The notes: generated by a model not told the origin, from the sequence alone. Positions 1-18,258 are shown, numbered from the stretch's first letter. The stretch: 37,654 nucleotides of DNA from Acidimicrobiia bacterium (GCA_040880805.1 JBBDHW010000055.1:1-37654), one strand, 5' to 3'. Made by a program: numbers and translations.

Positions 1-3000
1 TGCTCGCCCGCGCGCTGCTCGTCGACGGCAACGTCGACGAGGCCGACGAGATGGCGACCGCGAGCGAGCAGCTCGCCGGCCAGAACCTCAAGACCGCGAT
101 CGGCTGGCGGGTGGCGCGCGCCGAGGTGCTCGCCGAGCGCGGTGACGTGGCCGGCGCGGTCGCGATCGCGGAGCAAGCGGTCGACATCGCGGCCGGGACC
201 GACCTCGTCATCGACCACGCCGATGCCTGCGCCGCGCTCACCGCGCTGCGCGCCCGCGCGGGCGACGCGGCCGGGGCCCGGGCCGCGCGTGCCGACGCCC
301 GGCGTCTCTACGAGCAGAAGGGCGCAACCGTCCCCGCGGAACGCCTCGCCGAGAACGAAGCGCCCGCGGCGACCACGCACCCCGTGCCGTCGCTGCCGCG
401 GTCGGTGCGCGACGACAACGAGGAACGTCACGATCACCCCCGGGCCGAGAACCGCGCGAGCCGGGTGCTCGCCCGCTACGAGCAGCTCGTATCCGAACGC
501 CGGTACGACGAGGCGGCCGCCCTGTACGCCGACGACCTCGTGGCCACCGACCGACGCTCCGGGGTCTCGGTTCCGCCGTTGGGACCGGTCGAGCTCCAGC
601 AGGGTGTGCGGCTCACCTTCGACCTGTTCGACGGGTTCGACAGCGTCAACGTCGCGGTACGCGGCGAGCGCCTGGTCCTGAGCAAGCTGGCGCTGCGAAC
701 TCACGACGGTCTCGAGGTCCCCTTCCTTCAGCTCTTCGAGATCGACGACTCCGACCGGATCCGCGCGACGACCCACTTCGACCCCGATGCCCTCGCCGAC
801 GCGATCGACGAGCTCGACGAGCGGTACCTCGCGGGCGAGGGCGCCGAGCACGCGGACGCGATCCGCCCGATGCTCGAGCACCTCGCCGCGTTCCACGCGC
901 GGGACTGGGAGGCACTGGCGCAGAGCGTGCGCGACTACGAAATCGTCGACCATCGCGGCCTGTGGCCGGACACCGGACCCGAGGCCTACGTCGAGCGGAT
1001 GCAGAGCCTGGCGGCAACAGCGCCCGACGTGACGATCGTCGCCCGGCAGCTCCATCTACGCGGCGACGCGGGCTTGATCACTGCCGTTGTCCGGGCGACC
1101 GCGGCGCAGGGCGACCGTTACGAGTACACGTTCCACACCGTCAGCCGTCCCGGTCGCATGGAGTATTTCGACGAGGAGGACTTCGCGGCCGCGCTCGCAC
1201 GCTTCGACGAGCTGAGCCGCACCGACCCGAGTCCGCCGCGCGTCGAGAACGCCGCAAGCCGTATCTGGGCGCAAGTGATCGCCGCGGTCAACTCGGGAGC
1301 CAGCCTCGACGACCTTGCAGAGCTGTACGCACCGTTCCACTTGGACGACCGCCGACCGGTCGTCAACTTCGGCGAGCGTGACAGCGCCGGCGTGGGCCGG
1401 GCGCTCGACGTCTTCCGCGAGCAGGGCTACGAATTCGAGGTTCCGACCGCGCTCGCCGTTCGAGGAGAACGCCTTGCACTGTGCGCGAGCCGGTCCCGGA
1501 CGTCCGGCGGCTACGAGAGCGCCCAGCTCGATGTCGTCGAGGTCGACGAGCAGGGCCGGCTGCTCGACTGCGTCCAGTTCGGCGAGGCCGACCTCGACGC
1601 CGCGATCGACGAGCTCGACACCCGCTACCTCGCCGGCGAGGGCGCCGAACACTCAGATGTCGTGCGCGCGGCGGGGCGGGTCCAACATGCCTTCAACGAA
1701 GAACCGGACGCACTCGACGCGCTCTGCTCGCCGGACTTCATGCTCGACGACCACCGTCGCCTCATGTACGGCGAGGGCGACCGTGACTACTTCGTCTCGA
1801 TCCGACGCGCCAGCTCCGACGCGCACGTCCGGGCAACGGCCACGATCAACCGCAGCATCTTCGTCCAGGGTCGAGCGCTCCTGGCGGTCCAGGATCTTCA
1901 CCGCGACGACGCGGACGGCGCCGACTACCGCTGGGGGTACAGCGTGTTGGTGGCGTTCGACGCGTTGTGGCGTCTCCAGCGCCTCGAGTGGTTCGACGAC
2001 GACCACTGGGATGCCGCGCTCGCCCGCTTCGACGAGCTCGCAGCCGAGGTTCCCGAGCCGGCTGCGGCCAAGCCCGATTCGTACGCCCTGTTGACTCGCG
2101 CCGTGCGGTGCGCGCACGCATACGACGAAGCGTTCGCGGCGCAGGACTGGGATCGCATCGAGGCGTCATACCACGACGATGTCGTCAACGAGGACCGGCG
2201 CAACGCTGTCAGCTCGGGCGTCACGACCGGACGAGACGGGTTGCTCGAGCTCGTTCGCCGGTTGGTCGACGTCGGGTTCACGACCGTCACGCAGACACCC
2301 GTTGCGGTCCGCGGTGAGGCCCTCGCGCTCGTGCACCGAACCTGGGAGACGGCGAGCGGCTATTGCCTCGAGCTGCTCGCCGTCATCGAGTACGACGAAG
2401 AGGACCGGATGACCGCGAACGTCATGTTCGACCTCGACGGCCATGGGGCCGCCCTCCAGGGGCTCGACGACCGATACTGCGCAGGCGAAGGCGCGGCCGA
2501 CGCGTACCTGATCCGCCGCGCGGGTGACTTCGTCCGGTCGCTCGCCTCACCCGATGGGGCCGCGACGCTCGCCCTGGTCCATCCCGACGTCCGCTTCACG
2601 GACCACCGCCGCCTCGGGTTGGGGACGTTGGGGTTCGACGGTGTGCGCGGGATCCTGGCCGCTCGCGCCGAGCAGATCGCCGCGGACACGTCGTACTTCC
2701 GGGACCTCGCGGTGCGCGACTCCACGACGATGGGGCTGCTCGTGTCAGCCGGGACCGGTCCCGATGGTACCGAGGTGCTCTACGAGCTGTATTGGGTGTC
2801 CCGCTGGGTGGCGGGGAGGACGCTCGACGTCGACGGGTACGACCCACCCGACCACGACGCGGCCCGCGCCCGCTTCGACCAGCTCGCGGCCACCGACCCG
2901 CGCACACCGCACATCCACAACGCTGCCCTGCAGGTGTTCGCTCGGGCCGACTGGCTCCTCGGCCATGGTGAAGCCGCTGCGGGATACGCGCTCATGGCGG

Positions 3001-3725
3001 ACGACGTGGTCGGCACCTTCCGTCGTCGGGCCGTGTCGAGTCCGCCGACCTCCGGGAGGGAGGAGTTCGAACGCGTCATCCGGTCGATGCGCGAGACCTT
3101 CCCCCGTGCGACCTACGAGCCGGTCGCGGTACGCGGTGACCGCCTCGCGCTGGTCAGGATCAACATGCTCACCGACGCGGGCTTCGAGGTTCCACATCTC
3201 GGTCTGTACGAGATCGACGAGGCCGAGCTGATCTCGCGCGTGGTGACATTCGACGACTCCGACCTCGTCGGCGCGCTCGAGGAGTTGGAGCAACGACACC
3301 GCGAGCTGAGCGGCGACACGTACACACATGCCGAGCAGTCATTCGCGGAGCGTTCGATCGCCTACCAACGTGGCGACCTCGACACGATGCTCACGTTCTT
3401 GAGTCAGCACTACCAAGTGGTCGATCACACGCCGGTCGGGTTCGGAACCGCCGATGCCGCGGGCCTTCGCGCGCAGATTGCAGCTTGGGATCCCCAGGTG
3501 CCGACAGTCGTGATCCAGGCCAAGCGGTACGTGTCGGAGCGCGCCATCCTCGAAGCGATCGCGCACCGCGGCACGACCGATGACGGTTCCGACTACGTCT
3601 GGGAGAACGCCACCGTCGCGTGCTTCGACGCGAACGGACTGGTGGTCGCCGACCACAGCTTCCCGATCGAGCAATGGGACGAGGCGGTCGCCCTGTTCGA
3701 CGAGCTCGCGACCCTCGAGCCGTAG
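1..3725 (+). CDS. 3' part of a giant regulator-like protein: TPR-like tail plus about eight NTF2/SnoaL-like domains
   Basis: The reading frame is open from the left edge of the window (frame of base 3), so the gene is cut by the window and the ATG at 51 is probably internal. The first 100 or so residues are alanine-rich helical repeats ending in a DARRLYEQKG motif, typical of the TPR tail of actinobacterial cyclase/AAA-ATPase/TPR proteins; that upstream architecture is inferred. From about residue 130 (counted from base 51) a composite unit of roughly 270 residues recurs four times, starting near residues 132, 397, 672 and 953. Each unit appears to hold two NTF2/SnoaL-like folds. Recurring motifs are AVRGERLAL, DDRR or DHRR, and FDELDERYLAGEGAEH. 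No catalytic residues can be assigned. The repeats may bind a small ligand or form a scaffold; this is a guess. VapBC follows 57 bp downstream on the same strand. Confidence 0.75.
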   Translation, partial: LARALLVDGNVDEADEMATASEQLAGQNLKTAIGWRVARAEVLAERGDVAGAVAIAEQAVDIAAGTDLVIDHADACAALTALRARAGDAAGARAARADARRLYEQKGATVPAERLAENEAPAATTHPVPSLPRSVRDDNEERHDHPRAENRASRVLARYEQLVSERRYDEAAALYADDLVATDRRSGVSVPPLGPVELQQGVRLTFDLFDGFDSVNVAVRGERLVLSKLALRTHDGLEVPFLQLFEIDDSDRIRATTHFDPDALADAIDELDERYLAGEGAEHADAIRPMLEHLAAFHARDWEALAQSVRDYEIVDHRGLWPDTGPEAYVERMQSLAATAPDVTIVARQLHLRGDAGLITAVVRATAAQGDRYEYTFHTVSRPGRMEYFDEEDFAAALARFDELSRTDPSPPRVENAASRIWAQVIAAVNSGASLDDLAELYAPFHLDDRRPVVNFGERDSAGVGRALDVFREQGYEFEVPTALAVRGERLALCASRSRTSGGYESAQLDVVEVDEQGRLLDCVQFGEADLDAAIDELDTRYLAGEGAEHSDVVRAAGRVQHAFNEEPDALDALCSPDFMLDDHRRLMYGEGDRDYFVSIRRASSDAHVRATATINRSIFVQGRALLAVQDLHRDDADGADYRWGYSVLVAFDALWRLQRLEWFDDDHWDAALARFDELAAEVPEPAAAKPDSYALLTRAVRCAHAYDEAFAAQDWDRIEASYHDDVVNEDRRNAVSSGVTTGRDGLLELVRRLVDVGFTTVTQTPVAVRGEALALVHRTWETASGYCLELLAVIEYDEEDRMTANVMFDLDGHGAALQGLDDRYCAGEGAADAYLIRRAGDFVRSLASPDGAATLALVHPDVRFTDHRRLGLGTLGFDGVRGILAARAEQIAADTSYFRDLAVRDSTTMGLLVSAGTGPDGTEVLYELYWVSRWVAGRTLDVDGYDPPDHDAARARFDQLAATDPRTPHIHNAALQVFARADWLLGHGEAAAGYALMADDVVGTFRRRAVSSPPTSGREEFERVIRSMRETFPRATYEPVAVRGDRLALVRINMLTDAGFEVPHLGLYEIDEAELISRVVTFDDSDLVGALEELEQRHRELSGDTYTHAEQSFAERSIAYQRGDLDTMLTFLSQHYQVVDHTPVGFGTADAAGLRAQIAAWDPQVPTVVIQAKRYVSERAILEAIAHRGTTDDGSDYVWENATVACFDANGLVVADHSFPIEQWDEAVALFDELATLEP

Positions 3726-5506: not shown

Positions 5507-5519
5507 GTGGAGGTGATGG
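5507..5519 (+). repeat. 13-bp direct repeat, candidate left attachment core
   Basis: GTGGAGGTGATGG here is identical to 18184-18196, the end of the tRNA-Ala gene next to the serine recombinase remnant. The two copies bracket the accessory genes in direct orientation. Caution: the inner GGAGGTGAT is also an ideal Shine-Dalgarno sequence and sits 5 bp before the GTG at 5521, so part of the match may be convergent. Confidence 0.45.
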
Positions 5520-5520
5520 T

Positions 5521-5874
5521 GTGGAGCTAATCGCGTTGCTTTCGAACCCCTCTGTCAACCCGGAGTGGGACGAACTGCTCCAGATGGCGAAGGCAGGTGA
5601 GCTGTAGAACCGGCGTCCAGAGGCTGACGTTCGTCAACGCGACTTTCGTAACCGACGATGCTGGATCGAGGGGGATCCCGATTGGAGATTCTTGGCTCCA
5701 GTGACTGCCCGCTTCCTCGGCCGCGAAGGCGCGCTGTACACGCACGTAGACAACAAGAAGCACGACGTCACCGACGACGTCGAGTGGGACCGAATCTGCA
5801 TCGCGGCCGCCTGGGTCACGCTCGATCGCTATGAATCGGCCATAACCAGCGGCAACTGGGAGCCAGAACTATGA
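5521..5874 (+). pseudogene. Frameshifted small gene upstream of, and coupled to, the 455-aa gene
   Basis: Protein-like sequence runs through this stretch but changes frame. GTG at 5521, after a strong GGAGGTGAT site, opens 28 residues (ELIALLSNPSVNPEWDELL) ending in TAG at 5605. A second frame, open from a GTG at 5597, reads RTGVQRLTFVNATFVTDDAG. It appears to slip back to the first frame at a run of five G (5670-5674) and continues DPDWRFLAPVTARFLGREGA to the stop at 5872-5874. That stop overlaps the next ATG by 4 nt. The whole would give about 115 residues. It may be a broken gene, two small coupled genes, or an assembly error at the G run. The product is not recognised. Confidence 0.5.
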
Positions 5875-7238
5875 CGACTCGCCGTCAAACTGTTCTGCAC
5901 GAAGAGCAGATCGAAGCTGTGATCGACCAGTTCAACGAGTTCGCTGACAAACAGGCTGACCTCGTCCGAGGCAAGAACCGTGAGCGCGTCTACACATTGA
6001 AGCCGGAGCATCAGCCATCGGTCGATGCTGCTCTCTCGGCGCAGCTTCGGGACGTTCTGGAAGACGAGATCGTTCCCGCGACCGAACTAGAGGACGCCAA
6101 AATCCTCCCGGTCGAACTCGACCATGAGGTGATCAAGAAGGCACTGATCGGTCTCAAGCTGGAGACACTCAAGAGAGTCGCGGAACGCAGCGCTCTCGAA
6201 GGTACCGGTAACGCCGAAAGTCTCGCCACGCGGATCGCGGAGAGCTACGCATGGAATCGAGAAGAGATCGCGCGGCTCATTCTCGCAAGCGAGGACGAGC
6301 CCGCTGTTGAGCGAGCGCATGTCGACCGTCTCTATGCGCTATACGACTCGCCGCCGCTCGACTATGTCTACGAACGCCTCAGATACGTACTCGGGCGCTA
6401 CATCCGTATCGGCGTCGCTCGCTGGTTCGTCTTCGAAGAACTCGAGAGTGTGACCGGACAACTCACGCTGCGGGGAACGCTACGCGCGTACAACGCGACT
6501 GTCACCGAAGTCGAAGCCAATCCAACGGTCGTCGGAACACCCGCACGCGATCACAGGATTGAACTCCTAGTAGACAACAGTCCGCTACTCCACGTCCGTC
6601 ACGGGAGCGCTAACGAGAGCTCGGCTGCCGTGCGTGCACTCGAAATCGCCACCCGCATCCAGGTACTTGGAAAGCCGACGCTGGGCGCAGGCGCCTCAGC
6701 GGCGCTTGCGACCCTCGCACCTGCGTCACTCTTTATGCTCGACCTGCTCACGACCCGATTCGGCACCGCAGGACTTCATAACAAGAACATGACGGTCGCA
6801 CGGTTCCAGGTCGACGATGACGACCGAGGCGAAGAGCCGGAGTCGAGGCCAAGACTTCGCGCGGTGCGCTTCGAGGGTGCTCACCTTCTCGACTCCGCCG
6901 CCGCGTGCAAACTGCTCGCCGACGAGGGCCGCGCGCTCGTAGACATGTCGATAACCGTTCGCTCGGCGCTCAGGGCCGACGGTGAGACGGGCCGCTTTCC
7001 GGTTCGAGTAGCCATCGAACGAGACCATGTTCTCGCGATGACCGGTTTCGGAACGCTTCCGGGACTGTCGTTCGGCGTGCACGCCGCCGTCGTGGATGCG
7101 GTCACCGAAGAACTCGGCGACGGCTTGGCGGACGTAAATGCCCTCGCTGAATTGGCTACGAAGATCGAAGAGAGGGCGCGCAGCACGGTCCCGATCGAGG
7201 AAGCCGACATGCTGCGAGACAACGAGCCGTCGACGTAG
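5871..7238 (+). CDS. Unrecognised 455-aa protein with a SAP-like segment
   Basis: The ATG overlaps the upstream stop (ATGA), so translation is probably coupled. I do not recognise the protein as a whole. Residues about 90-126 (ALIGLKLETLKRVAERSALE, followed by a short loop and a second helix, LATRIAESY) resemble the helix-loop-helix of SAP or SAP-like nucleic-acid-binding motifs. The N-terminus is charged and helical. The remainder, about 150-455, looks like a mixed alpha/beta globular domain with no transmembrane segments or obvious catalytic motif. Codon use is less GC-biased than in the flanking core genes, fitting an acquired gene. Its position at the edge of an island with nuclease, helicase and methylase genes suggests, but does not prove, a mobile-element or defence role. 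Confidence 0.7.
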   Translation: MTTRRQTVLHEEQIEAVIDQFNEFADKQADLVRGKNRERVYTLKPEHQPSVDAALSAQLRDVLEDEIVPATELEDAKILPVELDHEVIKKALIGLKLETLKRVAERSALEGTGNAESLATRIAESYAWNREEIARLILASEDEPAVERAHVDRLYALYDSPPLDYVYERLRYVLGRYIRIGVARWFVFEELESVTGQLTLRGTLRAYNATVTEVEANPTVVGTPARDHRIELLVDNSPLLHVRHGSANESSAAVRALEIATRIQVLGKPTLGAGASAALATLAPASLFMLDLLTTRFGTAGLHNKNMTVARFQVDDDDRGEEPESRPRLRAVRFEGAHLLDSAAACKLLADEGRALVDMSITVRSALRADGETGRFPVRVAIERDHVLAMTGFGTLPGLSFGVHAAVVDAVTEELGDGLADVNALAELATKIEERARSTVPIEEADMLRDNEPST

Positions 7239-7554
7239 GGGCGCGCGGGCCCGCGCAGAGGGGATTGGGCCGCTCAGTGACTCGCGGCCTGGCTGAGTAA
7301 GACCGCCATGCCCAGCAGTGTCCAAACGCGAATGCACCGGAACGTCGCCATGACCATCCACCGGGGGAGTTCTGAACCAGTTACCGCGGCCAGGCTGGTG
7401 GCGGGGTCCAAGAGCTCTGGCGAACCTACGGCGGCCCTGAATGCGGCGTGAACGTCCTGTTCCCCATTGAGCGCGCCGACACGGTGCCCATCTCCGTGGT
7501 TGGACGCTGCGGACGGGCGTACTTCAGATCCACCCAGCAATAGTGCGCTGCTGG
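7239..7554. other. Non-coding stretch between two accessory operons
   Basis: I see no supported gene. The minus-strand frame across it runs on as antisense of the 225-aa gene and has no family features. The right end carries the promoter of the next gene. Confidence 0.5.
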
Positions 7555-7560
7555 TATCGT
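7555..7560 (+). promoter_or_regulatory. -10 box TATCGT, probable leaderless promoter
   Basis: A TANNNT hexamer lies 7 nt before the ATG at 7568 and no Shine-Dalgarno sequence is present, so the mRNA probably starts at the initiation codon. No clear -35 element is seen. Confidence 0.45.
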
Positions 7561-7567
7561 CCTCATC

Positions 7568-8245
7568 ATGGACTATGACGAGTTTCTTCATCTGCTGCGG
7601 GTTGGTGAGCCAAAGCGTTTCGTTGAGCTCCTGATCGAAACCCTCCGGCAGGTCTACGCCTTCAATGCTGACCGCCACGAGGAAGACATGGGCGACGACG
7701 CCCAGACGTTCGGCTTCCTCGTCTACCGAAACGGCTGGCGAAGGTTGGAAGATCAGCTGGGCTCCCTGGCCGGTGTTTCTACCCGGCGCCCCAACAACTC
7801 GTTGCAGATTCAGGTCGAGGGCGGCGTCCACTTCCACGTGTACCGCGGCGGCAATGACGAGACCTTCGACATCTACACGTATGACTTCTCAACCGGCACC
7901 CAGACCAAGGTGTCATTGCCAGCTCACAACGGGCGGCAGCTGAGCCTGTTCGAACAGGAGGAACCCGCGGCCGATCATGTGTGGCGCTTGGACGAGCTGG
8001 TATTTGTGCACGCGGGCAACCCAGACACCGGGCTCACCGGAGTGTGGGTTGGAGCGCCCATCCCGGAGGCAGCCGACGGCTCCCAATGGGCATGGGTGCT
8101 GCCGCTCTACTCCGGTGAAAGTGATGGCGCCCGCGCCAAGGACGACACGACTGCTCCTGTCTCACCGTTCGACGCGCTCGACGAACCTGACCTCGACGTT
8201 GGACTTCTCGACGACGAAGCAGACCAGGGCGAAGAGGCCGGATGA
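7568..8245 (+). CDS. Unrecognised 225-aa protein coupled to the XRE/ImmA gene
   Basis: I do not recognise a family. The N-terminal half reads as a compact mixed fold (YDEFLHLLRVGEPKRFVELL, then a beta-rich part around VEGGVHFHVYRGGNDETFDI). The tail from about residue 190 is acidic and low-complexity (DALDEPDLDVGLLDDEAD). No membrane segment or signal peptide is present. The stop overlaps the next ATG by 4 nt, so the protein is very likely made with the XRE-ImmA/IrrE protein and may be its partner or substrate. In known XRE/ImmA pairs the metallopeptidase cleaves a repressor or inhibitor; whether this protein plays that part is unknown. Confidence 0.75.
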   Translation: MDYDEFLHLLRVGEPKRFVELLIETLRQVYAFNADRHEEDMGDDAQTFGFLVYRNGWRRLEDQLGSLAGVSTRRPNNSLQIQVEGGVHFHVYRGGNDETFDIYTYDFSTGTQTKVSLPAHNGRQLSLFEQEEPAADHVWRLDELVFVHAGNPDTGLTGVWVGAPIPEAADGSQWAWVLPLYSGESDGARAKDDTTAPVSPFDALDEPDLDVGLLDDEADQGEEAG

Positions 8246-9438
8246 GCCCATCTGGCGCTGCGGCAGCGGCTGCGATCTTCGATCGCCGTCGGCTCACCCA
8301 AGCCCGCGAGCACAAGGGTCTCACCAAACATGACCTAGCAGTGAAGGTTGGCGTGAGCCCCGCTGTCATCGGTCAATACGAAGCTGGCGCGACCAACCCG
8401 AGCGGCGATGTGCTCGGTCGACTGGCGTTGGCTCTCGGGTTCTCGGTGGACTTTTTTGCCCGTGGCGGGGACAAAAGTGTTTCCCTCACCGATGCCCATT
8501 TCCGCAGTCTTCGTTCGACGACACGAGCCCAGCGCCGTCAAGCGATTACGCAGGCGATCTTTGCTGCCGAGATCGCTGCTGCCCTTGAAGAGCACATCCG
8601 CTTACCGGCTCTCGACCTCCCGCACTACGAGCTACCGCCCGGCGCGCACGGGCTGGCCGCGATCGAAGCTCTAGCGGACCAGGCTCGGGTCGATCTTGAA
8701 CTCGGTACCGGGCCGATTCCGCACATGGTGCGGCTTCTTGAGTCAAGGGGCGTGGTGGCTGTACGACTCCGCGCCGAAACTGAACGCGTAAGCGCGTTCT
8801 CGTGTCCCTTTCGCCCACGCCCCGTGGTAGTCCTCAGCACCAATCGCGACGACAAGGCGCGGTCGCGTATGGACGCGGCACACGAGCTAGCGCATCTCCT
8901 CTTGCATCACGAGGTCGACCCCGGTTCTCAGAGCATGGAGAGACAAGCGAACGCGTTCGCAGCCGCATTTCTCATGCCACCCGACGCAATCCGCCCTTAC
9001 CTTCCCGTTCGCCTGCATTGGCAACGACTTGTTGAAGCCAAACAAACCTGGGGAGTGTCGCTGGCCGCGCTGCTGTACCGATCGCGCACCCTTGGCGTAA
9101 TAAGTGAGGCTGCATATCGGAGGGCCATAGTCAGCCTCGGTCGGCACACCTGGGAGGACGGGACAACCTGGCGAAGGCGAGAACCTGCACCGCTGGGCGT
9201 ACCAGAAGAGCCAGCGCTCCTGCATCGTGCGGCCGAACTGGCCACTACCCGTGGGTTCACGCTGGAAGGTCTCGCCGAGCGGGTTCGCCTGCCTCTTACC
9301 CTTGTTCAGGAGACAATCGGTCTCGAGGACGAAGCTCCGATGGTCGCTGTTCAGCAAGGCCCCTCGAGTCTGCGGACTGTTACCCCTCCGCGGAGCGAGC
9401 TCAACGAAGAAGGTCCTTGCCAGCCGGCGGTCCGCTGA
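8242..9438 (+). CDS. XRE-family HTH regulator fused to an ImmA/IrrE metallopeptidase
   Basis: The protein is 398 residues. Residues about 14-72 form a classic XRE helix-turn-helix (LTQAREHKGLTKHDLAVKVG, then SPAVIGQYEAGATNPSGDVL). The middle holds an ImmA/IrrE (peptidase M78) domain with zinc motif HELAH at residues 214-218 and the following ERQANAFAAAFLMP segment that supplies the third ligand in this family. The C-terminal 100 residues are not assigned. Such proteins act as stress- or phage-responsive switches in mobile elements and toxin-antitoxin-like pairs. It is coupled by ATGA to the 225-aa gene and converges on the methyltransferase operon, so it may control island genes; that is inference. 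The active site looks intact. Confidence 0.88.
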   Translation: MSPSGAAAAAAIFDRRRLTQAREHKGLTKHDLAVKVGVSPAVIGQYEAGATNPSGDVLGRLALALGFSVDFFARGGDKSVSLTDAHFRSLRSTTRAQRRQAITQAIFAAEIAAALEEHIRLPALDLPHYELPPGAHGLAAIEALADQARVDLELGTGPIPHMVRLLESRGVVAVRLRAETERVSAFSCPFRPRPVVVLSTNRDDKARSRMDAAHELAHLLLHHEVDPGSQSMERQANAFAAAFLMPPDAIRPYLPVRLHWQRLVEAKQTWGVSLAALLYRSRTLGVISEAAYRRAIVSLGRHTWEDGTTWRRREPAPLGVPEEPALLHRAAELATTRGFTLEGLAERVRLPLTLVQETIGLEDEAPMVAVQQGPSSLRTVTPPRSELNEEGPCQPAVR

Positions 9439-9611
9439 ATGAAGCGAAATAGGGCCAGGAACGCTCATGGCAAGCGGGGTGCGGCCAGACCACCACCTCA
9501 CAGGGTAGGGCGAGAAGCGCACGCGAGTCCCGTGAAGCGCCCACACTTTGCTTGCGCACATGATGGCACCATCACGAGAACGCTGTTGCGGCTTTCCTGA
9601 TTGCGCGGTCT

Positions 9612-11585
9612 TCAGGACCGGACGCTGCGAGGTGCAATGAATCGTTGCTGGTCGAGTCGTCTTGGGAACCGTTTCTCCCAGCCCGCGCTCAAGTAGCCGA
9701 TCTTGAGGCTGTACTCGCCAATCGCTCGCAGAAAGTCGGCTTCGATCCCGTCGAGTGTCGCCTTGGCTCGGTGACGTCGCCTGGGGCTGGCGTCCTTAGC
9801 AGCGAGATCTAGGACTAGATCGAGACTGCACGACCGCAACCCACGTTTCCGGTACTCGGTTTCGTTTTCCGCGTGCACAATTTCGTAACCGAGTGCTTCA
9901 AAGCCTGCGGTATCTAGGGCAGCGAGTAGGTCAGCCCACGCGTCGAGGTTGCGGTTCGCGAATGTCAAGACCAAGTGGCCAGTCGGCTTGAGGACGCGCC
10001 GTATCTCCTTGAAGATGCGCGTGAGTGTCGTTCGATACGATGCGCCATTGCGAATCAAGCCCTCGCGTCCGTTCGGCACTGCTTCGTCGGTCGGTGCCCC
10101 GGTGCGGATGCCGCTCCAGGCAAGTAGTGGTAGCGACAGTGCGCCGTATTGAACGTCGTCGTGGTACGGCGGATCGGTCAAGACCAAGTCTGCGGTTCCG
10201 CCTTGTAGCACCAGCCGCTGGGAGCCTCCCTCGACGACCCAGGCGTCGAATGCCTTCGGCATCCGCGACCGGCTACCGAGCGCGGTACTTCTGCGGACGA
10301 GTAGCGCGCCGCCCATCTGTTCTTCCATCCAGTCGATTGCCCCGCTGGTGCGCGCGACTCGCCGTGTAAGGGTTCCACGGCCGCTGGTAGCACCCCAAAC
10401 GTTTGGTTCTGCGGCGAGTGTTGTGAAGTTGTAGCGATGCCCGGCCATGGCTTCGTAGGACTTGAGGTAGTACCGATCCCAGCGAGAGAGATGGCCAGCC
10501 ATCTCGGATGTGCCGCGCAGCAGTGTCTTGAGCAGTTGACTGGCGCTGCCGTGAACGCCCTCGATCTTTGCTGCCTTCTCCAGCAGCTGTTCCAGAACGA
10601 ACTGCTGGCGTCTCGGGTAGAGATCGTCGAGGGTCTTGAAGCCGTGTCGCCGGAGGGATGAGGTCTCGGGTCCGACATCGATCTTCCCAAGTCTTTTCGT
10701 CGGCTTCCAGCACGGGTCATTCGCTTGGCGGATCTCGTTCGGCCGTGGTCGGGCGAGCTCGCGGCGATCTGCGCCGACCCGCTCGACGAGTGCGACGTCC
10801 CAGGACAGCTGTTGGTCTCGCGTTCGAGCAGCGATTGGTTCGTTGTGGTTGCACGAGGGACAGGTGATCATGCGATTGGTTGTGTAGTTCGCGTACGGGT
10901 CAACGCGTCGAGCGCACCGAGGACAGCGATGATGAACGGTGCTGTCGCCGTGAAACAGATGTCCTGCGGGACACGCGAGCCACGCGCCGCTGTCGTCTCG
11001 TTCTCGCCGATGTGTGAGGCTGACGAGCGCATGCGGGAAGATGCGATGTCGATGCCGACACGCCGAGCAAGAGCTGACGGCCACGCGCAACGTGTGCGCG
11101 ATCTCACCCGGTGAGCCATCTGCGAGTGTTGTGGCGTAGGCGCGTTTGCGCAGATTGCGACTCGCACGCTCCAGTTCTTCGTACGCTTTCTGGAGGGCTT
11201 GGCTGTTCGTGAGACGCAGCATGGTGGTCAGCCCGCGAGCAGCCCACGGGTTGACGTCCTGCGCGTAGATCCGATGGTTGCGCGAAGCTGCCGCAAGCGA
11301 CACGACCCCGCCTCCTGCGAATGGATCGACTACGAGCATTTCGCTACCGAGGTCTTGCTCTGCCGCGTCCAAGAGCGATCCGAAGACTGCTTCTGTCCGC
11401 CGCGCCCACCAGCGATAGACGACAATCGGCGGCAAGTACGTTTCGCGTCGCTTGACCTCGATAGCAGCGCGAGTCGACACATCGTCTGCGTCAAGGTGAC
11501 GCAAGATACTGAGCCGCAACGCGCCCGGCTCGCGGTCCACAGGTCTGACCGAGCTGGGGGCTCGGTCAGCCCGTCGTCTCGGCAT
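9612..11585 (-). CDS. DNA methyltransferase with WWARR, DPFAGGG and DPPY motifs and zinc ribbons (DUF1156-like)
   Basis: The start is taken at the ATG at 11585, which overlaps the upstream stop (TGATG), giving 657 residues; the open frame extends 23 codons further. WWARR at 59-63 and VDPFAGGG at 86-93 (motif I, AdoMet binding) are followed much later by LTDPPYHDD at about 469-477 (motif IV), the catalytic signature of amino methyltransferases (N6-adenine or N4-cytosine). Between them lie cysteine pairs at 173/176, 221/224 and 242/245, with a further Cys at 205: zinc ribbons that could recognise DNA. The WWARR-to-DPFAGGG layout resembles DUF1156-type methylases known from defence loci. It is the last gene of a four-gene operon and probably marks self DNA. 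Confidence 0.85.
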   Translation of the reverse strand: MPRRRADRAPSSVRPVDREPGALRLSILRHLDADDVSTRAAIEVKRRETYLPPIVVYRWWARRTEAVFGSLLDAAEQDLGSEMLVVDPFAGGGVVSLAAASRNHRIYAQDVNPWAARGLTTMLRLTNSQALQKAYEELERASRNLRKRAYATTLADGSPGEIAHTLRVAVSSCSACRHRHRIFPHALVSLTHRRERDDSGAWLACPAGHLFHGDSTVHHRCPRCARRVDPYANYTTNRMITCPSCNHNEPIAARTRDQQLSWDVALVERVGADRRELARPRPNEIRQANDPCWKPTKRLGKIDVGPETSSLRRHGFKTLDDLYPRRQQFVLEQLLEKAAKIEGVHGSASQLLKTLLRGTSEMAGHLSRWDRYYLKSYEAMAGHRYNFTTLAAEPNVWGATSGRGTLTRRVARTSGAIDWMEEQMGGALLVRRSTALGSRSRMPKAFDAWVVEGGSQRLVLQGGTADLVLTDPPYHDDVQYGALSLPLLAWSGIRTGAPTDEAVPNGREGLIRNGASYRTTLTRIFKEIRRVLKPTGHLVLTFANRNLDAWADLLAALDTAGFEALGYEIVHAENETEYRKRGLRSCSLDLVLDLAAKDASPRRRHRAKATLDGIEADFLRAIGEYSLKIGYLSAGWEKRFPRRLDQQRFIAPRSVRS

Positions 11586-12490
11586 CAGGCATCGAGTGGT
11601 GGCAGCCCAGGCTTGAACAAACCAGGGTGAGCTCGGATCCTCGCTGTTTGCCAAGTCCCACGGTCGTGGGCATCACGAGGCAACAAGGGATGAATTGTGT
11701 CGTAACGACACCAGCCTACGACGCTGGCCCCGCCTGCTAGTGGCACGTGACACATCGTCAGTATCCATTCTCGTAGGCGCCGGCCCGTCTCGGCCTCGGC
11801 ACGCGAGATGAAGAACTCGAGCGCGAGCCGATGACGAGAACTGGACTTGACCTCAATTCGCCACACGCCTCCCGGTAACCGTGGAGCGCGGACGTCGTAA
11901 CCCAGTTGGTCCGAACGCTCGCTGAGCCTGCATACCTGTTCAGCGAGATCGTCTCTTCCGAGGCGCAGGAGTTCGGCTCGCGCCTCGGCGACCACCAGCT
12001 CCTCGCCTGCTGCACCAATGACTCGCCGCTGGGTATCATTGGCGATCCTGGCGGCTGCGAGCAGGATCGCCTCGCGCCGATCGGGGTCCGGAAAGGCTGA
12101 AGTCAATCTTGTTGTGACGAGATCAGGCAGGAGCTCGTTCGCGACGCCGTTTCCTGTCACGGCTGCACCGAGCCACGTCGGTGAGGCAGTGGCGAGTGCC
12201 TCGATCGCAAGATTCTCGCAGGCACCGGCGTCGTCGTCCGTAGCGAGTTCCTGGAGTTGAATCGTCGGAGTGATCCACTCCCCGTTCATCTCGGCGAGAC
12301 CCCACGCCACGAGCCGCTGTTCAGCGTGTTCGAGATCGAGAATGTGGAACGCGCCAGCTCGCGGTAGCCCCCGATAGGCGAGGTGCAGATCCTGACGCCG
12401 AGTTCCGGTGGGGGGAAGTAGCCGAGCGACGTGCAACGCGCCGCGCAATTCGTAGGCCGTCGGCACCTGATGGACCGTGGCGTCACGCAT
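11585..12490 (-). CDS. DUF3883-like PD-(D/E)XK nuclease-fold protein
   Basis: The 301-residue protein overlaps the helicase gene by 8 nt upstream and the methylase start by 1 nt downstream, so all are probably translated together. The C-terminal half has the DUF3883 pattern: an AGEELVVAEARAELL helix around 161-175, then GYDV (Asp199), then WRIEVKSSS (Glu213 and Lys215), followed by LALEFFISRAEAE. Asp...Glu-X-Lys is the catalytic arrangement of restriction-endonuclease-like nucleases. The N-terminal 150 residues look like a winged-helix or helical region and are unassigned. In context the protein is the likely cleavage subunit of a restriction-like system. Nuclease activity is inferred from motif and family, not shown. 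Confidence 0.75.
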   Translation of the reverse strand: MRDATVHQVPTAYELRGALHVARLLPPTGTRRQDLHLAYRGLPRAGAFHILDLEHAEQRLVAWGLAEMNGEWITPTIQLQELATDDDAGACENLAIEALATASPTWLGAAVTGNGVANELLPDLVTTRLTSAFPDPDRREAILLAAARIANDTQRRVIGAAGEELVVAEARAELLRLGRDDLAEQVCRLSERSDQLGYDVRAPRLPGGVWRIEVKSSSRHRLALEFFISRAEAETGRRLREWILTMCHVPLAGGASVVGWCRYDTIHPLLPRDAHDRGTWQTARIRAHPGLFKPGLPPLDA

Positions 12491-14375
12491 CTGCCTGCCT
12501 CAGATGGGCGAACAGCGCAGCGATGTCGTCGAGACCTTCGATGGCATACCCGTAGTCCTCCTCATCGGGCAGCGCCATGGTCAGAAGGTCATGATCATCG
12601 AGCATGTGGGCCAGACGCTCCGCCTTGGTCGCGACGCGCTGGTCGACGACCTCGTCCACCGTGTTCTCAGTCATGAGAAATGTCACGTAGGTGCTTTGAG
12701 TCGGAGGTAGGCCGAGGCGATGAATGCGGTCCAGGCTCTGTAGGTACTGCCCCGCATTGAAAGTTCGGTCGAGGTACACGGCGTGGTGGCAGACCTCATG
12801 GAGACTGATTCCTTCACCCACCGCAGCCGGGTTGGCGAGCAGCACCGAGCAGTGCGGGTCATTGCGGAACCGCTCAAGCTCGGTTTGCCTGGTTCGGGCC
12901 GCGCCAGTCCCGTCCTCTTCCATTGGCACGCCACCGTGAATGAGCGCAGGCTCGAATGGCTGGAGCTCGCGGTTCGCCAGCGTTACTAAGTTGCGGACGA
13001 AGTTCGACCAAACGAGTGTCTTCTCGCCCTGTGCGGTGTTGTCGCGAACGAGGCGGGCAAGCTCAACAAACTTTCTCGGCACTTCGTGCTGCGGATAGAC
13101 CATGAGTAGCTCTGCCAGCGCTGATCCCGCCTCGACGTCCAACGGCGGATGACGGAACTCGATCGGATCATCCCGTGAGCCTCCGGCGACCAAGAGCGCG
13201 GGGTTTGTGGCGGCTTCGATGAGGTACATCGCAACCTGGCCCATCCGCGCGAGGCTGACCTGGTCAGCGCGGGTGGTTGCATATTGTCCCGCGTAGCGGC
13301 GGCTCAACGCAGCGTAGATCTCTGCCTGTAGCCCCTCCAGCGGCACCTGCCGTACGTCGAAGAAGACGGGCGGCAGTCCAAGCTCGCTCTTCGTCGTGCG
13401 CACGAAGAGGGGACCAATTCGTTGCGCGACTTCGTGCACCGCCTCGGGCGTTGGCTCGCGGTCAAGGGCGGCCGCGGGGAGCAGCCGGCGGCCTTGATTG
13501 GGCCACACGAAGTCGAGTACGGCTTCGAGGTCACGCGGATGGTGAGGAGCCGGCGTTCCGGTCAGGACGTCTCGGCGAGCTGCACGGTACGCCAAGCTGA
13601 GACACGTTCGGCCCCACTCTCCGGACCAACCGCGTTTCATGCGATGCGCTTCATCGAGTACCAGATGCGTTGGCATTCGCGCGACCCACTGGACGATCTC
13701 GTCATAGCTGTAGAGAAGCCGTTGGTAGCCGACGAGGAGGACCTCCGCATCGCGGTCGGGGGAGGTACCGCCATACACGCTGACGAGCGGCGCAGGCCGC
13801 ATGCAGCGCTCAGCCTCCACGTGCCATGTTTCGAAGGCTGATTTCGGCGCCACAACGAGTAGCTGCGCAACCCGGCTCGCTGCACGTTCGGCTTCGTACA
13901 GCGCGTATGTCACCGCAGTCTTCCCTGCTCCCGGAACCGAGAAATTTGCGCCATGCTGCAGGGAAAGCAGCTTTGCGAGGTCGCGAGTCTGGAAGTCACG
14001 AAGCGAGCGCTCGAAGCGGGTTTCGCCAAGCCGATCGATTGCGTCGGACTCAGAACCTGAAGCGTCGGTGCTCAACGATCGCTCAAGGTGCGTCCTCTCA
14101 GCACGCGCGACCTCGACGAGCTCTAGTACGTGTTCATCAAGCTGGACGTCGACGCCGTGCCGACGGCACTGCTGGACGAGCCACTGACGCCGGGCCAGGA
14201 AACGCTCCACCGGGATGCTGACGGTGTGAACAGTTCCGCGTTGGGTGGCGCCCCATTCAGCGATGATCTGTAACCACATCGTCTCAGGAACAGCCCCGAC
14301 GCGAGACATCTGCACAGAAAGCGTGAGGGGCTGCGCCGTCAGGTGGAGCGACGGTCGCGGCTCAGCGTCAGTCAC
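12483..14375 (-). CDS. SNF2-type superfamily 2 helicase/translocase
   Basis: This 630-residue protein has the full set of SNF2/SF2 motifs: Walker A SVPGAGKT (146-153), motif II DEAH (241-244), motif III LTGTP (271-275), an RTTKSELGLPP segment typical of SNF2 proteins around 326-336, motif V NPAAVGEGISL (515-525) and motif VI QSLDRIHRLG (546-555). The N-terminal 120 residues are specific to this protein and could contact partners or DNA. SNF2 enzymes use ATP to translocate on duplex DNA. The start lies 3 nt after the ParB-like gene and the end overlaps the nuclease gene. It is the likely motor of the four-gene system. It differs from the longer DISARM DrmD-type helicases in length, but the same broad family is involved. 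Confidence 0.9.
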   Translation of the reverse strand: MTDAEPRPSLHLTAQPLTLSVQMSRVGAVPETMWLQIIAEWGATQRGTVHTVSIPVERFLARRQWLVQQCRRHGVDVQLDEHVLELVEVARAERTHLERSLSTDASGSESDAIDRLGETRFERSLRDFQTRDLAKLLSLQHGANFSVPGAGKTAVTYALYEAERAASRVAQLLVVAPKSAFETWHVEAERCMRPAPLVSVYGGTSPDRDAEVLLVGYQRLLYSYDEIVQWVARMPTHLVLDEAHRMKRGWSGEWGRTCLSLAYRAARRDVLTGTPAPHHPRDLEAVLDFVWPNQGRRLLPAAALDREPTPEAVHEVAQRIGPLFVRTTKSELGLPPVFFDVRQVPLEGLQAEIYAALSRRYAGQYATTRADQVSLARMGQVAMYLIEAATNPALLVAGGSRDDPIEFRHPPLDVEAGSALAELLMVYPQHEVPRKFVELARLVRDNTAQGEKTLVWSNFVRNLVTLANRELQPFEPALIHGGVPMEEDGTGAARTRQTELERFRNDPHCSVLLANPAAVGEGISLHEVCHHAVYLDRTFNAGQYLQSLDRIHRLGLPPTQSTYVTFLMTENTVDEVVDQRVATKAERLAHMLDDHDLLTMALPDEEDYGYAIEGLDDIAALFAHLRQADA

Positions 14376-14378
14376 TGA

Positions 14379-15776
14379 TCACGTCCCGTCGGCCTCGAAG
14401 GCCTCCTTGAGTTCCTTCAGATGCTTGGTGTTCTGGCGCAGCTGATAGTCGAACTGTGGCCGACTGAACCCCGAGCTTGAGGCCACTCGGGTGTATGCGT
14501 CGCGCGCGCGACGAACCTTCTGATCAGCTTCCTTGAGTAGCGCGACCGGCCGATCGAGCTTGTTGGATTTCAGGCGGTCGTCTTTCGCATCCTGCGTCGC
14601 GAGATCGAAAACGTTCCGCACTCGGTTGGTAAAGCCATCCTTGTCCAGGGTTACTACGGCGCCGTTAGGGGCTGGCAGTTCAATCCGTCGCTCGCCTGGG
14701 ACTCTTGCAAGCAACCCGAGCAAAGTCCCGCCATCGAGTGACGAGTTCTCGGGATGTTCCCATTCATCGTCAGCGAGAAGGTCGATGCCGGGTAGGTCGA
14801 CATCGCTGGCCTCAACGGGTGTAAGGAGACGTTCGGTGAAGCGCCCGAGATGTTCGTCCTCGGACAAGTGGGGTTGCACGTAGTCCTCGACGAACGATTG
14901 GTCGATCTCGCGCATCTCCCGATAGCCGAGCTGTGCCAACAGAGCAATGAAGCGGGCGGTCTTGAGACGCTCAGCTCCTTCTGGATCGTTTTGCAGCAGG
15001 TCTTCGTAGGCCTCGTCGATCTCTTGGAGAGCTTGCCGCTTGTCGTCGAATTCGGTCAGCCGGCGTGAGTCGCCACTGAGTGCTTGGAGATCTCGGATGA
15101 GGCCGAGCACACGAAGCGACTGTTCGATGCGCCGCCGCCCTTTCGCGAGCTCCATGGTCTCAGACGAGGTTGCCCAACCAAGCGAGCGGGCCACTTGATC
15201 GCTCGACTGGCCGTAACCCTGAATCAGGTCCTGGACAAAGAGGAGTTCGTTCGTGAGCGTGTAGTCCTGTCGCAGATCGCGTTGCATCTGCAACTTGAGC
15301 TCAACGTCGTCGATCTCCTTTGGGCCCGCATCAGCTGGAAGCACCGCGAGGCTGATGTATTCGACCGGCCGCGCCCCTTCTTCGGTGAGCTGCCTCAACG
15401 CAACGCAACGGGTGTTCGCATTGATGAGGACACCATCAGCAGTGACGACACCGGCGTCGCGTTGGCCCTCCTCGCGCAAATTTGCCCTGAGATCTTCAAA
15501 CCCCGGCGTTGCAGCCAGAATTGCGCTCAGAAGCGCCTGGGCCTCTTCGCTTTGAGGGTCTCTCGCGATGACATCACGGTCCGGAAGCGACTCCAGCTCA
15601 GACCGAATGCGGTGACTCCGATGATTGAGGAGTACGTGGTCGAGCGGGACTTCAACGACCGCCATAACCTTGGTGTCGCCCTTCCACGGAAGAGGCAAGT
15701 TGGCATCGCCAGGAGCGCGTGCCGCCAAGGCTTGTGCGATCTTCTGACGCCGAGCCGCTTCAGGTGGAATGGGCAC
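14379..15776 (-). CDS. ParB/sulfiredoxin-fold protein, first gene of the defence-like operon
   Basis: The open frame reaches 16037, but the upstream 87 codons are arginine-rich noise over IS debris. The GTG at 15776, 6 nt after GGGGAGA, gives a coherent 465-residue protein. Residues about 41-56 (VEVPLDHVLLNHRSHRI) and 109-130 (GVVTADGVLINANTRCVALR) match the start and the N-R-aalR motif of ParB-like nuclease/CTPase domains. The central part holds a helix-turn-helix-like segment (QSSDQVARSLGWATSSETM), as in ParB proteins. The C-terminus is charged and helical. ParB folds occur in plasmid partition, in nucleases and in modification systems. Here, upstream of a helicase, nuclease and methylase, a DNA-sensing or loading role is likely but unproven. 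Confidence 0.7.
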   Translation of the reverse strand: MPIPPEAARRQKIAQALAARAPGDANLPLPWKGDTKVMAVVEVPLDHVLLNHRSHRIRSELESLPDRDVIARDPQSEEAQALLSAILAATPGFEDLRANLREEGQRDAGVVTADGVLINANTRCVALRQLTEEGARPVEYISLAVLPADAGPKEIDDVELKLQMQRDLRQDYTLTNELLFVQDLIQGYGQSSDQVARSLGWATSSETMELAKGRRRIEQSLRVLGLIRDLQALSGDSRRLTEFDDKRQALQEIDEAYEDLLQNDPEGAERLKTARFIALLAQLGYREMREIDQSFVEDYVQPHLSEDEHLGRFTERLLTPVEASDVDLPGIDLLADDEWEHPENSSLDGGTLLGLLARVPGERRIELPAPNGAVVTLDKDGFTNRVRNVFDLATQDAKDDRLKSNKLDRPVALLKEADQKVRRARDAYTRVASSSGFSRPQFDYQLRQNTKHLKELKEAFEADGT

Positions 15777-16307
15777 CCTTGATCTCCCCACGTGCGACGA
15801 CCGGTCACCTTGAGTGTGTACCAATCGTACGGTTCCCGGGAGCACAGGGTTCCTTCGCCGCTGGACGCGGGTCGGGAGAGTGCTCGACAGCACTTCTACA
15901 GTTCGCGATATCGGTCCTGGACCCGTGACCACTGGACCCCGATGATGTCTCGGAGGCTGTCGGCGTGGTCGACGAGGCCGTGCACGTCGCAACCTTGGTG
16001 TGTGGCCTCGAAGTTGCCTTGGCATTGGGATGTCCACTGCTCCCCCATGCCGAGCAGTCCGCGGCGATGCGGTCGTTTGGCGTCGTCAGCGCCGAAGACA
16101 AAGCAAGGCGGGGGTGGAGTCGACCGGGAGCCCGGAGTGAACCGCCCTGGGGCACATCACTCTGGCTATTGGGATTTCAACCGTCTCGTTCGTGTGGTGG
16201 TGACCGTAGCGGTCGGCTTCGAACTGGGCGGGTGGGATGTCACCGAGCGCGCTGTGCAGCCGGGTGGTGTAAGAGATGATGCTTCCCGATCGGGGTTGAC
16301 ATGACGA
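15777..16307. other. Mobile-element debris with no intact gene
   Basis: This 531-bp stretch holds the operon's promoter region at its left end and decayed IS sequence. Besides the IS3-like tail annotated separately, a short minus-strand frame ending at 15896 reads as plausible protein (GCDVHGLVDHADSLRDIIGV). It has no start and no family that I recognise. Confidence 0.55.
16086..16283 (-). mobile_element. C-terminal remnant of an IS3-family transposase
   Basis: The minus strand reads SYTTRLHSALGDIPPAQFEA followed by DRYGHHH in one frame, the very C-terminal signature of IS3-family orfB transposases (RLHSALG.xPPaqfE). Nothing upstream continues the DDE domain and the frame runs into unrelated residues before the stop at 16086, so only the tail survives. 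It lies between the operon and the OmpA-like pseudogene. Confidence 0.65.
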
Positions 16308-17272
16308 CTACGCGCGCGAGTGCGCGACGATCGTGATTTCAGCGCGCCGGTTCCGCTGTCGACCGGCCGGGTCGTCATTCGAGGCAATCGGCCGCGAAGA
16401 ACCCCAACCATGCGCCGACACGAGGGGTTGTGGAACCCCGTGCGCGACGAGCCAGTTCGCGACCGTCTGTGCGCGCTCAAGTGACAGAGCCTGATTTCGG
16501 TCATCGTCTCCTGTGTTGTCGGTGTGGCCGTCGACGACGATCGAGGCCGCGCGAGCTTGCCGTATGGCGTTCAGCGCGTCGCCGAGCGCGGTGGTGGCGT
16601 CGGGCGACAGTTCGGCGGAGTCAATGGCGAAGAGAACGTCGCCCGGAAGAGTGACCTGTACGGCCCCCGTGGCTTGGTCGCGATGGATGCTCGCCCGTGT
16701 CTTGGTCACTGGGAAGGTGACGAGGTCGGTGTCGTACGCGAGGAGCTTCCCGGACCGCATTGGGCGAAGAGTCGTGACCAGAAGTCGCGGATGGTGTTGG
16801 CCTGCGCGTCTGTCAGCGGTGTTCCAGGATCATTGGTCCCGGCCCCGATGACGTAGATCTGCCAGCCCTTGCAGTTAGGTATCAGTCCGGCGGCTGTGGC
16901 GGTTGAGAGCATCGCGGTCGCGCCGCTCGACAGTACGGTGGCGTCGGTCATGTTGAGCGCGGCGTCGGTGTTCTCCATGTTCGAGAAGAGCAGCACGTCG
17001 ATCGTGGGGGTCGTGAGGCCGCTGACGTGGCTCGCGAGCGCGTCGAGGGCGCGGAAGACATTGCGCTGCGTGCCGCCGTGTCCTCCCATCAGCTTGTTGA
17101 GGGCTGCTGTGGCGGCGTTCATTTTGCAGGTGCGGTTCTGGTCGCGCAGCAGCTTGTTGTTGCCGGTGGCGTCGAGTCGCATGTTGATGGGCAGCGGCTG
17201 GGTGTCACGGGTCATGCCGTCGAGCAGGAGGCGGGCGTGGTCTGTGAAGCCGGCCGCGAGGATGATGCCCAT
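16308..17272 (-). pseudogene. Frameshifted and 5'-truncated VWA/OmpA-like surface protein gene
   Basis: Two frames make one decayed gene. From about 17290 (first ATG 17272) the minus strand reads MGIILAAGFTDHARLLLDGM, then VSGLTTPTIDVLLFSNMENT and GWQIYVIGAGTNDPG, which looks like a von Willebrand A-type domain. It ends at 16706. An overlapping frame from 16760 gives 150 residues with a full OmpA C-terminal peptidoglycan-binding domain: VLFAIDSAELSPDATTALGD, VDGHTDNTGDDDRNQALSLE, RA.TVANWLV and NRRAEI. A single-base shift near 16750 would join them. The 5' end is lost where the sequence changes to the serine recombinase at about 17285. The OmpA part alone may still be translatable but has no signal peptide. 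Confidence 0.7.
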
Positions 17273-17289
17273 TGCTTTGGTGCGGGTCC

Positions 17290-18193
17290 CATCCGCCACG
17301 TCCACAACCTGTTGCGCGACCCCTTCTACGTCGGGCTCGTCACCTGGGCTGGCATCCAATACCCAGGCACACACGAACCGCTCGTCTCCATCGAGACCTT
17401 CGCCACCGTGCAAGCCATCATGCACAGCCGCAACCGCGCCGGCGAGAAGGTCCGCAAGCACCCCCACTACCTCAAGGGCACCATCTTCTGCGCGCGCTGC
17501 CAATCGCGTCTGTCGTTCGGGCGTTCCCGCGGCAAGAGTGGCGGCCAGTACGACTACTTCTTCTGCCTCGGACGCCACCAACGCCGCAACGACTGCGACC
17601 TTCCCTACATCCCCGTCGACGACATCGAAGACGCCGTCGCGGCCTACTACCGAACCATCCAACTCAGCGACGACACCGTTCGCGCCTTGCACGACGGCCT
17701 CATCGCGGCCATGCGCGCCCGAACCAGCGGCGCGGAACAACGCGCTCGGCAACAGCGCAAGCGCATCACCACACTTGAAGGAGAACGCCGGAAGTTGCTC
17801 CAAGCCCACCTCGCCGGCGCGATCACCCTCGACCTCCTCAAGGAACAACAAGACCGCATCACGCGACAGCTCGCCGACGCCGGTGCCGCCCTCGCCGCCA
17901 CCGAGATCGACTGGGAGACCATCGAGACCAACATCCACGCAGCCCTCGGCCTCGCCACCCACTTCGAAAAGGCCTACCGGCGAGCCAAGCCCACAACACG
18001 GCGACACATGAACCAAGCCGTCTTCGAAGCGGTCCACGTCGACGTCGAGGGCGTCGTCTACGCCCGCCTCGCCGAACCATTCGCCCAACTCCTCGCCGAC
18101 GACCTCATGGACCGCCTGGAACACGAACTGAAGAACCCCGCCCCTGTTCAACAGGATCGGGGTTCGCGAAAGAGAGCACTTTGGTGGAGGTGA
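17290..18193 (+). pseudogene. C-terminal half of a large serine recombinase
   Basis: From about 17290 the plus strand reads VHNLLRDPFYVGLVTWAGIQ, the end of the Recombinase domain, then HEPLVSIETFATVQAIM. A zinc ribbon follows (FCARC, YFFC and NDC), then a long coiled coil rich in Arg/Glu/Gln. This is the standard C-terminal half of large serine integrases. The N-terminal resolvase catalytic domain with its serine is absent: upstream codons are antisense of the OmpA/VWA remnant. The last codons (WWR and stop) lie within the tRNA-Ala 3' end, so the gene abuts the putative attachment site. It is inactive as an integrase but marks the island as mobile in origin. Confidence 0.85.
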
Positions 18194-18258
18194 TGGGACT
18201 TGAACCCACGACTTCTACGTTGCGAACGTAGCGCTCTACCGGGCTGAGCTACACCCCC
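18182..18258 (-). tRNA. tRNA-Ala (anticodon CGC)
   Basis: A complete cloverleaf can be folded: acceptor GGGGGTG with CACCTCC, D-arm GCTC/GAGC, anticodon stem CTACG/CGTAG with loop TTCGCAA (anticodon CGC), T-arm GTGGG/CCCAT with TTCAAGT, discriminator A, and an encoded CCA. Pair 3-70 is G:U, the identity element of tRNA-Ala. The 3' end faces the accessory island and the recombinase remnant, so it is the likely integration target. Confidence 0.97.
18184..18196 (+). repeat. 13-bp direct repeat, candidate right attachment core
   Basis: Identical to 5507-5519. It covers the last bases of the tRNA-Ala acceptor and T-stem region, and the stop codon of the recombinase remnant lies inside it. Confidence 0.45.

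Follow-up and report, generated by a model that had tools for sequence, protein, structure and literature searches.

An unnamed ParB–SNF2–DUF3883–methyltransferase operon as a candidate restriction-modification system

What might a ParB-like protein do in one operon with a SNF2 motor, a nuclease-type protein and a DNA methyltransferase? The question arises from a stretch of 37,654 nucleotides from an Acidimicrobiia bacterium (GCA_040880805.1, JBBDHW010000055.1; the window hereafter), in which a sequence-only reading had described four closely spaced minus-strand genes as a candidate new defence system, putatively self-sufficient and with a ParB-fold sensor. Checked on the sequence, this layout holds. 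The four genes span 9612–15776, all on the minus strand, and encode, as predicted, (i) a ParB-fold protein of 465 residues (14379–15776, with a GTG start at 15776 and the stop at 14379); (ii) a SNF2-family ATPase/translocase of 630 residues (12483–14375); (iii) a DUF3883/NOV_C protein of 301 residues (11585–12490); and (iv) a DUF1156/DISARM-like amino-methyltransferase of the alpha motif order (9612–11585). The first two genes are separated by a 3-nt gap, the second and third overlap by 8 nt (ATGCGTGA) and the third and fourth by 1 nt (TGATG), the methyltransferase being taken to start at the ATG at 11585; the TTG at 11654 that appears in a mechanical ORF list is the less likely start. A chance arrangement is excluded, since the set recurs in dozens of genomes.

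Predicted folds and conserved sites of the four proteins

By sequence, the ParB-fold protein scores below the Pfam cut-off, and PDB sequence searches with it and with the DUF3883 protein recovered no credible relatives, the M-protein coiled-coil matches that they returned being spurious. The AlphaFold2 model of the protein (pLDDT 92.6) bears out by fold the ParB-like identity that had been suggested: the best 15 Foldseek matches are all ParB, KorB or Noc structures, several with nucleotide bound (best E 1.5e-4, probability 1.00), with a probability of 1.00 against the structures of C. crescentus ParB, M. xanthus ParB and RK2 KorB. The match shows the ParB N-terminal fold with an HTH domain by which the superfamily is recognised. 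Residues R56, Q105, N121, R123, E159 and Q163 are invariant in a 60-member alignment; we read them, from the sequence rather than from a residue-level structural alignment, as probable counterparts of the ParB nucleotide-binding boxes, and propose that the protein is a DNA-binding subunit acting as an NTP-dependent clamp.

The other three proteins also retain the residues singled out in the sequence-only reading, namely the SNF2 helicase motifs, a D...ExK site in the third protein and the WWARR/DPFAGGG/DPPY signature of the methylase. The SNF2 protein matches SNF2-rel_dom (2e-16) and Helicase_C (1.9e-8) in Pfam, with a marginal match to the ResIII domain in Pfam/PADLOC, and its motifs PGAGKT, DEAH, TGTPAP and DRIHRLG are invariant among 8 diverse relatives. 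The DUF3883 protein matches NOV_C (PF13020, a relative of DUF3883; 5e-5) in Pfam and PDC-S36 (1.3e-16) in PADLOC, and consists of a helical N-terminal region followed by a predicted C-terminal nuclease domain of the PD-(D/E)XK type. In its relatives, G159, E163, D199, E213 and K215 are invariant; the putative E..D..ExK site is made up of E163, D199 and E213-x-K215, which at the sequence level is the pattern of a PD-(D/E)XK nuclease. The best nuclease fold match of its AlphaFold2 model (pLDDT 94.6) is the Hjc resolvase, with a Foldseek probability of 0.99 but an E of 0.014, a distant likeness that is suggestive rather than conclusive of a nuclease fold; the invariance of these residues is the better support for the predicted activity. 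DUF3883 has already been termed a novel REase domain (PMC3710099).

The methyltransferase matches N6_N4_Mtase (6e-7) in Pfam and, far under the cut-off, DUF1156_antiphage (2e-15) in NCBIfam. DPFAGGG (motif I), CxxC pairs and DPPY (motif IV) follow one another in that order, and WWARR is intact as well. The alpha order is usual for N6-adenine methylases; together with DPPY, it suggests that the product is probably N6-methyladenine.

Recurrence of the set, exchange of methylases and other nucleases

A scan of 84,980 species genomes, one per species, gave 327 relatives of the SNF2 protein, which is a rough count. The best 80 of these 327, together with plasmid and genome loci and one locus from a viral collection, form a set of 91 loci, a sample biased toward close relatives in which counts are not whole-family frequencies. 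The loci span five phyla (Actinomycetota, Acidobacteriota, Chloroflexota, Pseudomonadota and Bacillota), so that recurrence in unrelated genomes, a check named beforehand, was indeed observed. ParB adjoins SNF2 in 90 of the 91 loci, DUF3883 comes next in 63, and 83 loci have a methylase no more than 8 kb away (60 of the 64 loci with full flanks, the other four having no methylase of the three classes described below). The idea of a four-gene unit therefore stands in part: the set recurs, but the conserved core is ParB–SNF2, most often accompanied by DUF3883, and the methylase can be exchanged. The four-gene form is thus one flavour of a larger ParB–SNF2 family. Some relatives are found on plasmids and many copies are chromosomal; viral contigs scanned with the window SNF2 protein alone gave no matches, and the same scan with the SNF2 alignment did give matches. 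The window ParB is sparse in its phylum, being present in 3 of 396 genomes, its own included. Note that a same-order genome outside the 91-locus set has ParB–SNF2–DUF3883 together with fragments of an Eco57I-like methylase, although in broken frames.

Three methylase classes occur among the 91 loci: Dcm (5mC) in 61, the amino-methyltransferase type of the window (NMT) in 16 and an Eco57I-like type in 8, with both Dcm and an amino-methyltransferase in two loci. Strains of Kribbella, Nocardioides, Microbacterium and Curtobacterium are among the carriers of NMT-type loci. An apparent methylase-less group was discarded, all eight of its loci carrying the Eco57I-like methylase. On the SNF2 tree, the 16 NMT loci share a single group with the 8 Eco57I-like ones (SH-aLRT 98), and methylase class needs to change only twice, the minimum possible, against 20–24 times in the five shuffles listed. 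Since class changes are so few although this group covers four phyla (Actinomycetota, Acidobacteriota, Chloroflexota and Pseudomonadota), the genes move together. Likewise, SNF2 distances in the 16 NMT loci correlate with those of the methylase (r 0.93), ParB (0.96) and DUF3883 (0.96; Mantel p 2e-4), which demonstrates co-inheritance and not interaction, as neighbouring genes correlate even without functional contact. The methylase lies on the opposite strand in five loci; the operon form is therefore not required.

Vsr, which repairs the T:G mismatches arising from 5-methylcytosine, provides a second view of the methylases. Of the 61 Dcm loci, 52 have it, whereas it is missing from all 30 others (Fisher 2e-16, a p that is too small given the relatedness of the loci, which makes them non-independent); all 22 loci with only an amino-methylase lack it. 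The sole NMT locus with Vsr (L021) also holds a separate, complete Dcm/Vsr/MvaI-BcnI set, to which its Vsr was traced. Such a pattern would be expected of partner methylases that act on DNA and a window class that makes no 5mC; for the Dcm partners, Vsr co-occurrence is no more than a suggestion of activity.

The nuclease varies as well. DUF3883 is absent from 22 of the 59 Dcm-labelled loci and is therefore not the universal nuclease of the family. Directly upstream of ParB, many Dcm loci encode UP280 (for example L008, 11120–11983), which PADLOC assigns to the type II REases (REase_II, 2.5e-19) and which has no Pfam family. Two distant Bacillota loci (L013, 4317–8844; L014, 7953–13456) combine ParB and a longer SNF2 protein, with a PbeA-like N-terminal part in L013, with a MutH/Sau3AI-like REase near Dcm. 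In some Dcm loci lacking DUF3883, a protein of 230–247 residues upstream of ParB (L095, 7609–8301; L016, 10943–11686), for which no family match was found, is possibly an alternative nuclease. This leaves two readings: the nuclease, like the methylase, may be exchangeable, or ParB–SNF2 may be an accessory to several nucleases. An accessory role, in which ParB–SNF2, with or without DUF3883, would help, regulate or repair an ordinary restriction-modification system while another enzyme cuts, fits the frequency of UP280 in Dcm-type loci and the MutH/Sau3AI-like enzymes of Bacillota. We nevertheless hold it to be unlikely: in NMT-type operons such as that of the window, DUF3883 is the sole recognised nuclease, and its catalytic residues are invariant.

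Relation to known systems

By sequence and predicted fold, the operon encodes a methyltransferase together with a predicted DNA-cleaving component, the general hallmark of restriction-modification. Does it belong to a system already named? The earlier suspicion that none fits proved sound as far as PADLOC, NCBIfam and the searchable literature go: none of the PADLOC or NCBIfam models used here names the ParB–SNF2–DUF3883–methylase set, and a literature search, with subscription papers and REBASE outside its scope, found no description of a ParB–SNF2–DUF3883 system.

DISARM comes closest in its methylase. The window methyltransferase is 42–48% identical to the methylases of 15 other ParB–SNF2 loci; outside such loci, its closest relatives (46–47% identity) are the methylases of two drmA–drmB-like loci, so the methylase is not unique to the ParB–SNF2 system. 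In these two loci (L185, 7267–15499; L186, 6992–15669), DrmA- and DrmB-like genes lie beside the methylase, and L185 also has a DrmC-like gene. In the methylase tree, the ParB-linked members are separated from the rest by a modestly supported branch (86/89). DISARM (drmMI/drmMII with drmA, drmB, drmC and drmD) likewise couples a homologous amino-methylase to SF2 motors, including one of the SNF2 class (PADLOC weakly matches the window SNF2 protein to DrmD). One could thus envisage a DISARM variant in which ParB–SNF2–DUF3883 stands in place of DrmABC and the mechanism is unchanged. This we judge very improbable, as the window has ParB and DUF3883 instead of DrmA/B/C, and most relatives carry Dcm, so that the window-type methylase does not define the system. 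As had been noticed from the sequence, the usual DISARM genes are missing: among the window genes scanned, PADLOC gave no DrmB or DrmC match and only a weak DrmA match to the SNF2 protein (E 0.002). DISARM membership was therefore rejected. For the methylase the picture is mixed: alongside the 46–47% identity, no Drm methylase model is among the 25 PADLOC matches listed. The window system and DISARM-like loci have a methylase family in common and do not share the DISARM machinery.

Other systems were set aside on similar grounds. For BREX, PADLOC found neither PglZ/BrxZ nor a BrxC-type ATPase among the eight window proteins scanned, its BREX-type matches being limited to a local PglX-like match in the methylase and a weak BrxH match in the SNF2 protein. 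BREX-related systems and ARMADA follow a similar logic of N6-methylase plus Swi2/Snf2 helicase, but use PglZ/BrxC-like, HKD or YprA parts, and the portions of the two papers drawn on here contain no ParB–SNF2–DUF3883 set (PMC12839542, PMC12458937). Zorya was rejected on a partial ZorD helicase match with no ZorA/ZorB, and MADS on a partial mad2 methylase match (both PADLOC); type I and type III restriction-modification were rejected, with no HsdR, HsdS or Mod among the Pfam/PADLOC matches.

The nearest precedents are the SWI2/SNF2 restriction-modification operons with MORC ATPases described in 2008, which bring together an SNF2 helicase, DNA methylases (mostly cytosine), Vsr-family endonucleases and REases, but rely on GHKL/MORC ATPases and HNH or EcoRII-like nucleases, the term ParB being absent from that paper (Iyer et al. 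2008, PMC2292703). Two further systems are related through their parts: one has a COG1743-type methylase and an SNF2 protein joined to a REase (PMC7641849), and in the other DUF3883 itself is fused to SNF2 alongside HEPN-DUF499 (PMC3710099); in both, unlike here, the ATPase is DUF499 rather than ParB and the nuclease is fused to the helicase. Type II restriction-modification with Dcm and Vsr pairs a methylase with a REase, as the Dcm-type relatives do, but in its classical form needs neither an SNF2 motor nor a ParB protein. With the SNF2–Dcm–Vsr operons described in 2008 (PMC2292703), the kind of system is thus already known; the ParB–SNF2–DUF3883 form with exchangeable methylases was not found described in the literature searched (subscription papers excluded).

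Island setting and proposed mechanism

The operon lies in a region of 12.7 kb (5507–18258, about 5.5–18.2 kb) with a GC content of 0.627 against 0.69 outside. At its right end is a tRNA-Ala (CGC) gene found by ARAGORN (18182–18258, minus strand), the 3' end of which is the probable integration site: a 13-bp att-like direct repeat at the putative left end (5507–5519), where GC falls, is identical to 18184–18196 within it, a match that 0.4% of random 35-mers equal. The region also holds the remnant of a serine recombinase that lacks the N-terminal resolvase domain (17117–18193, plus strand; Pfam Zn_ribbon_recom 1.3e-12 and Recombinase 5.8e-6; PHROG integrase 3e-33). Convergent to the operon, an RmrT/RmrA pair (7568–9438, plus strand; PADLOC 4.7e-27 and 2e-113) corresponds to RosmerTA, a toxin–antitoxin-like defence system. 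The natural reading of the low-GC region is a defence island.

A mobile setting could point to partition or maintenance of the element, with the ParB protein acting as in ParABS, and the ParB fold, the island location and the plasmids among the relatives would agree with this. We give this explanation hardly any credence: no ParA match was found among the window genes scanned, the coupling to SNF2 and methylases is constant, and many copies are chromosomal. The RosmerTA neighbour, being of the toxin–antitoxin type, could in turn hint at abortive defence, in which ParB–SNF2–DUF3883 would stay silent on the methylated chromosome and kill the cell when a phage blocks methylation or sets the nuclease free to attack host DNA. 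Suicide of this kind would call for an identical gene set and methylase linkage; nothing specific distinguishes it from direct restriction, which the variants with type II REases resemble, and we think it quite unlikely.

We consider instead that the operon is probably an unnamed ATP-dependent multi-subunit restriction-modification system of which the ParB protein is a subunit, because of the ParB–SNF2 pairing, the methylase linkage, the Vsr pattern, the invariant DUF3883 site and the ParB fold; the co-inheritance of the genes, the RosmerTA neighbour, the tRNA island and the same-order genome with its Eco57I-like methylase fragments lend further support. In such a system, the methyltransferase would mark host sites, the ParB-fold protein would bind DNA, possibly as an NTP-dependent clamp, the SNF2 protein would translocate or remodel, and the PD-(D/E)XK domain of the DUF3883 protein would cut unmarked DNA, a presumed order of action that may serve in phage defence. 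ParB–SNF2, with or without DUF3883, would then be the restriction module, paired in each case with the class of methylase that protects the host. Apart from the ParB protein and the methylase, there is no obvious target-recognition subunit.

Restriction-modification of this kind would amount to a widespread unnamed architecture (about 327 SNF2 relatives in the 84,980 species genomes), missed by the PADLOC and NCBIfam models used, in which one conserved effector module takes different methylase classes, and it predicts a testable link between ParB-type proteins and restriction. A more specific version, which we offer tentatively and regard as doubtful, is that a clamp of the ParB nucleotide-switch type is loaded at targets that lack methylation and recruits the SNF2 protein and the DUF3883 nuclease, making this a distinct ATP-dependent restriction class with exchangeable methylase specificity. 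We know of no earlier case in which ParB clamping serves to tell self from non-self; if true, clamp loading here would be the first.

The island also contains a 455-residue frame (5871–7238, plus strand) without a Pfam, PADLOC, NCBIfam or PHROG match and, upstream of ParB, a 150-residue frame with an OmpA-like domain (16308–16760, minus strand). Elsewhere in the window, a 1224-residue frame (51–3725, plus strand) unusually fuses three SnoaL-like stretches into a single polypeptide.
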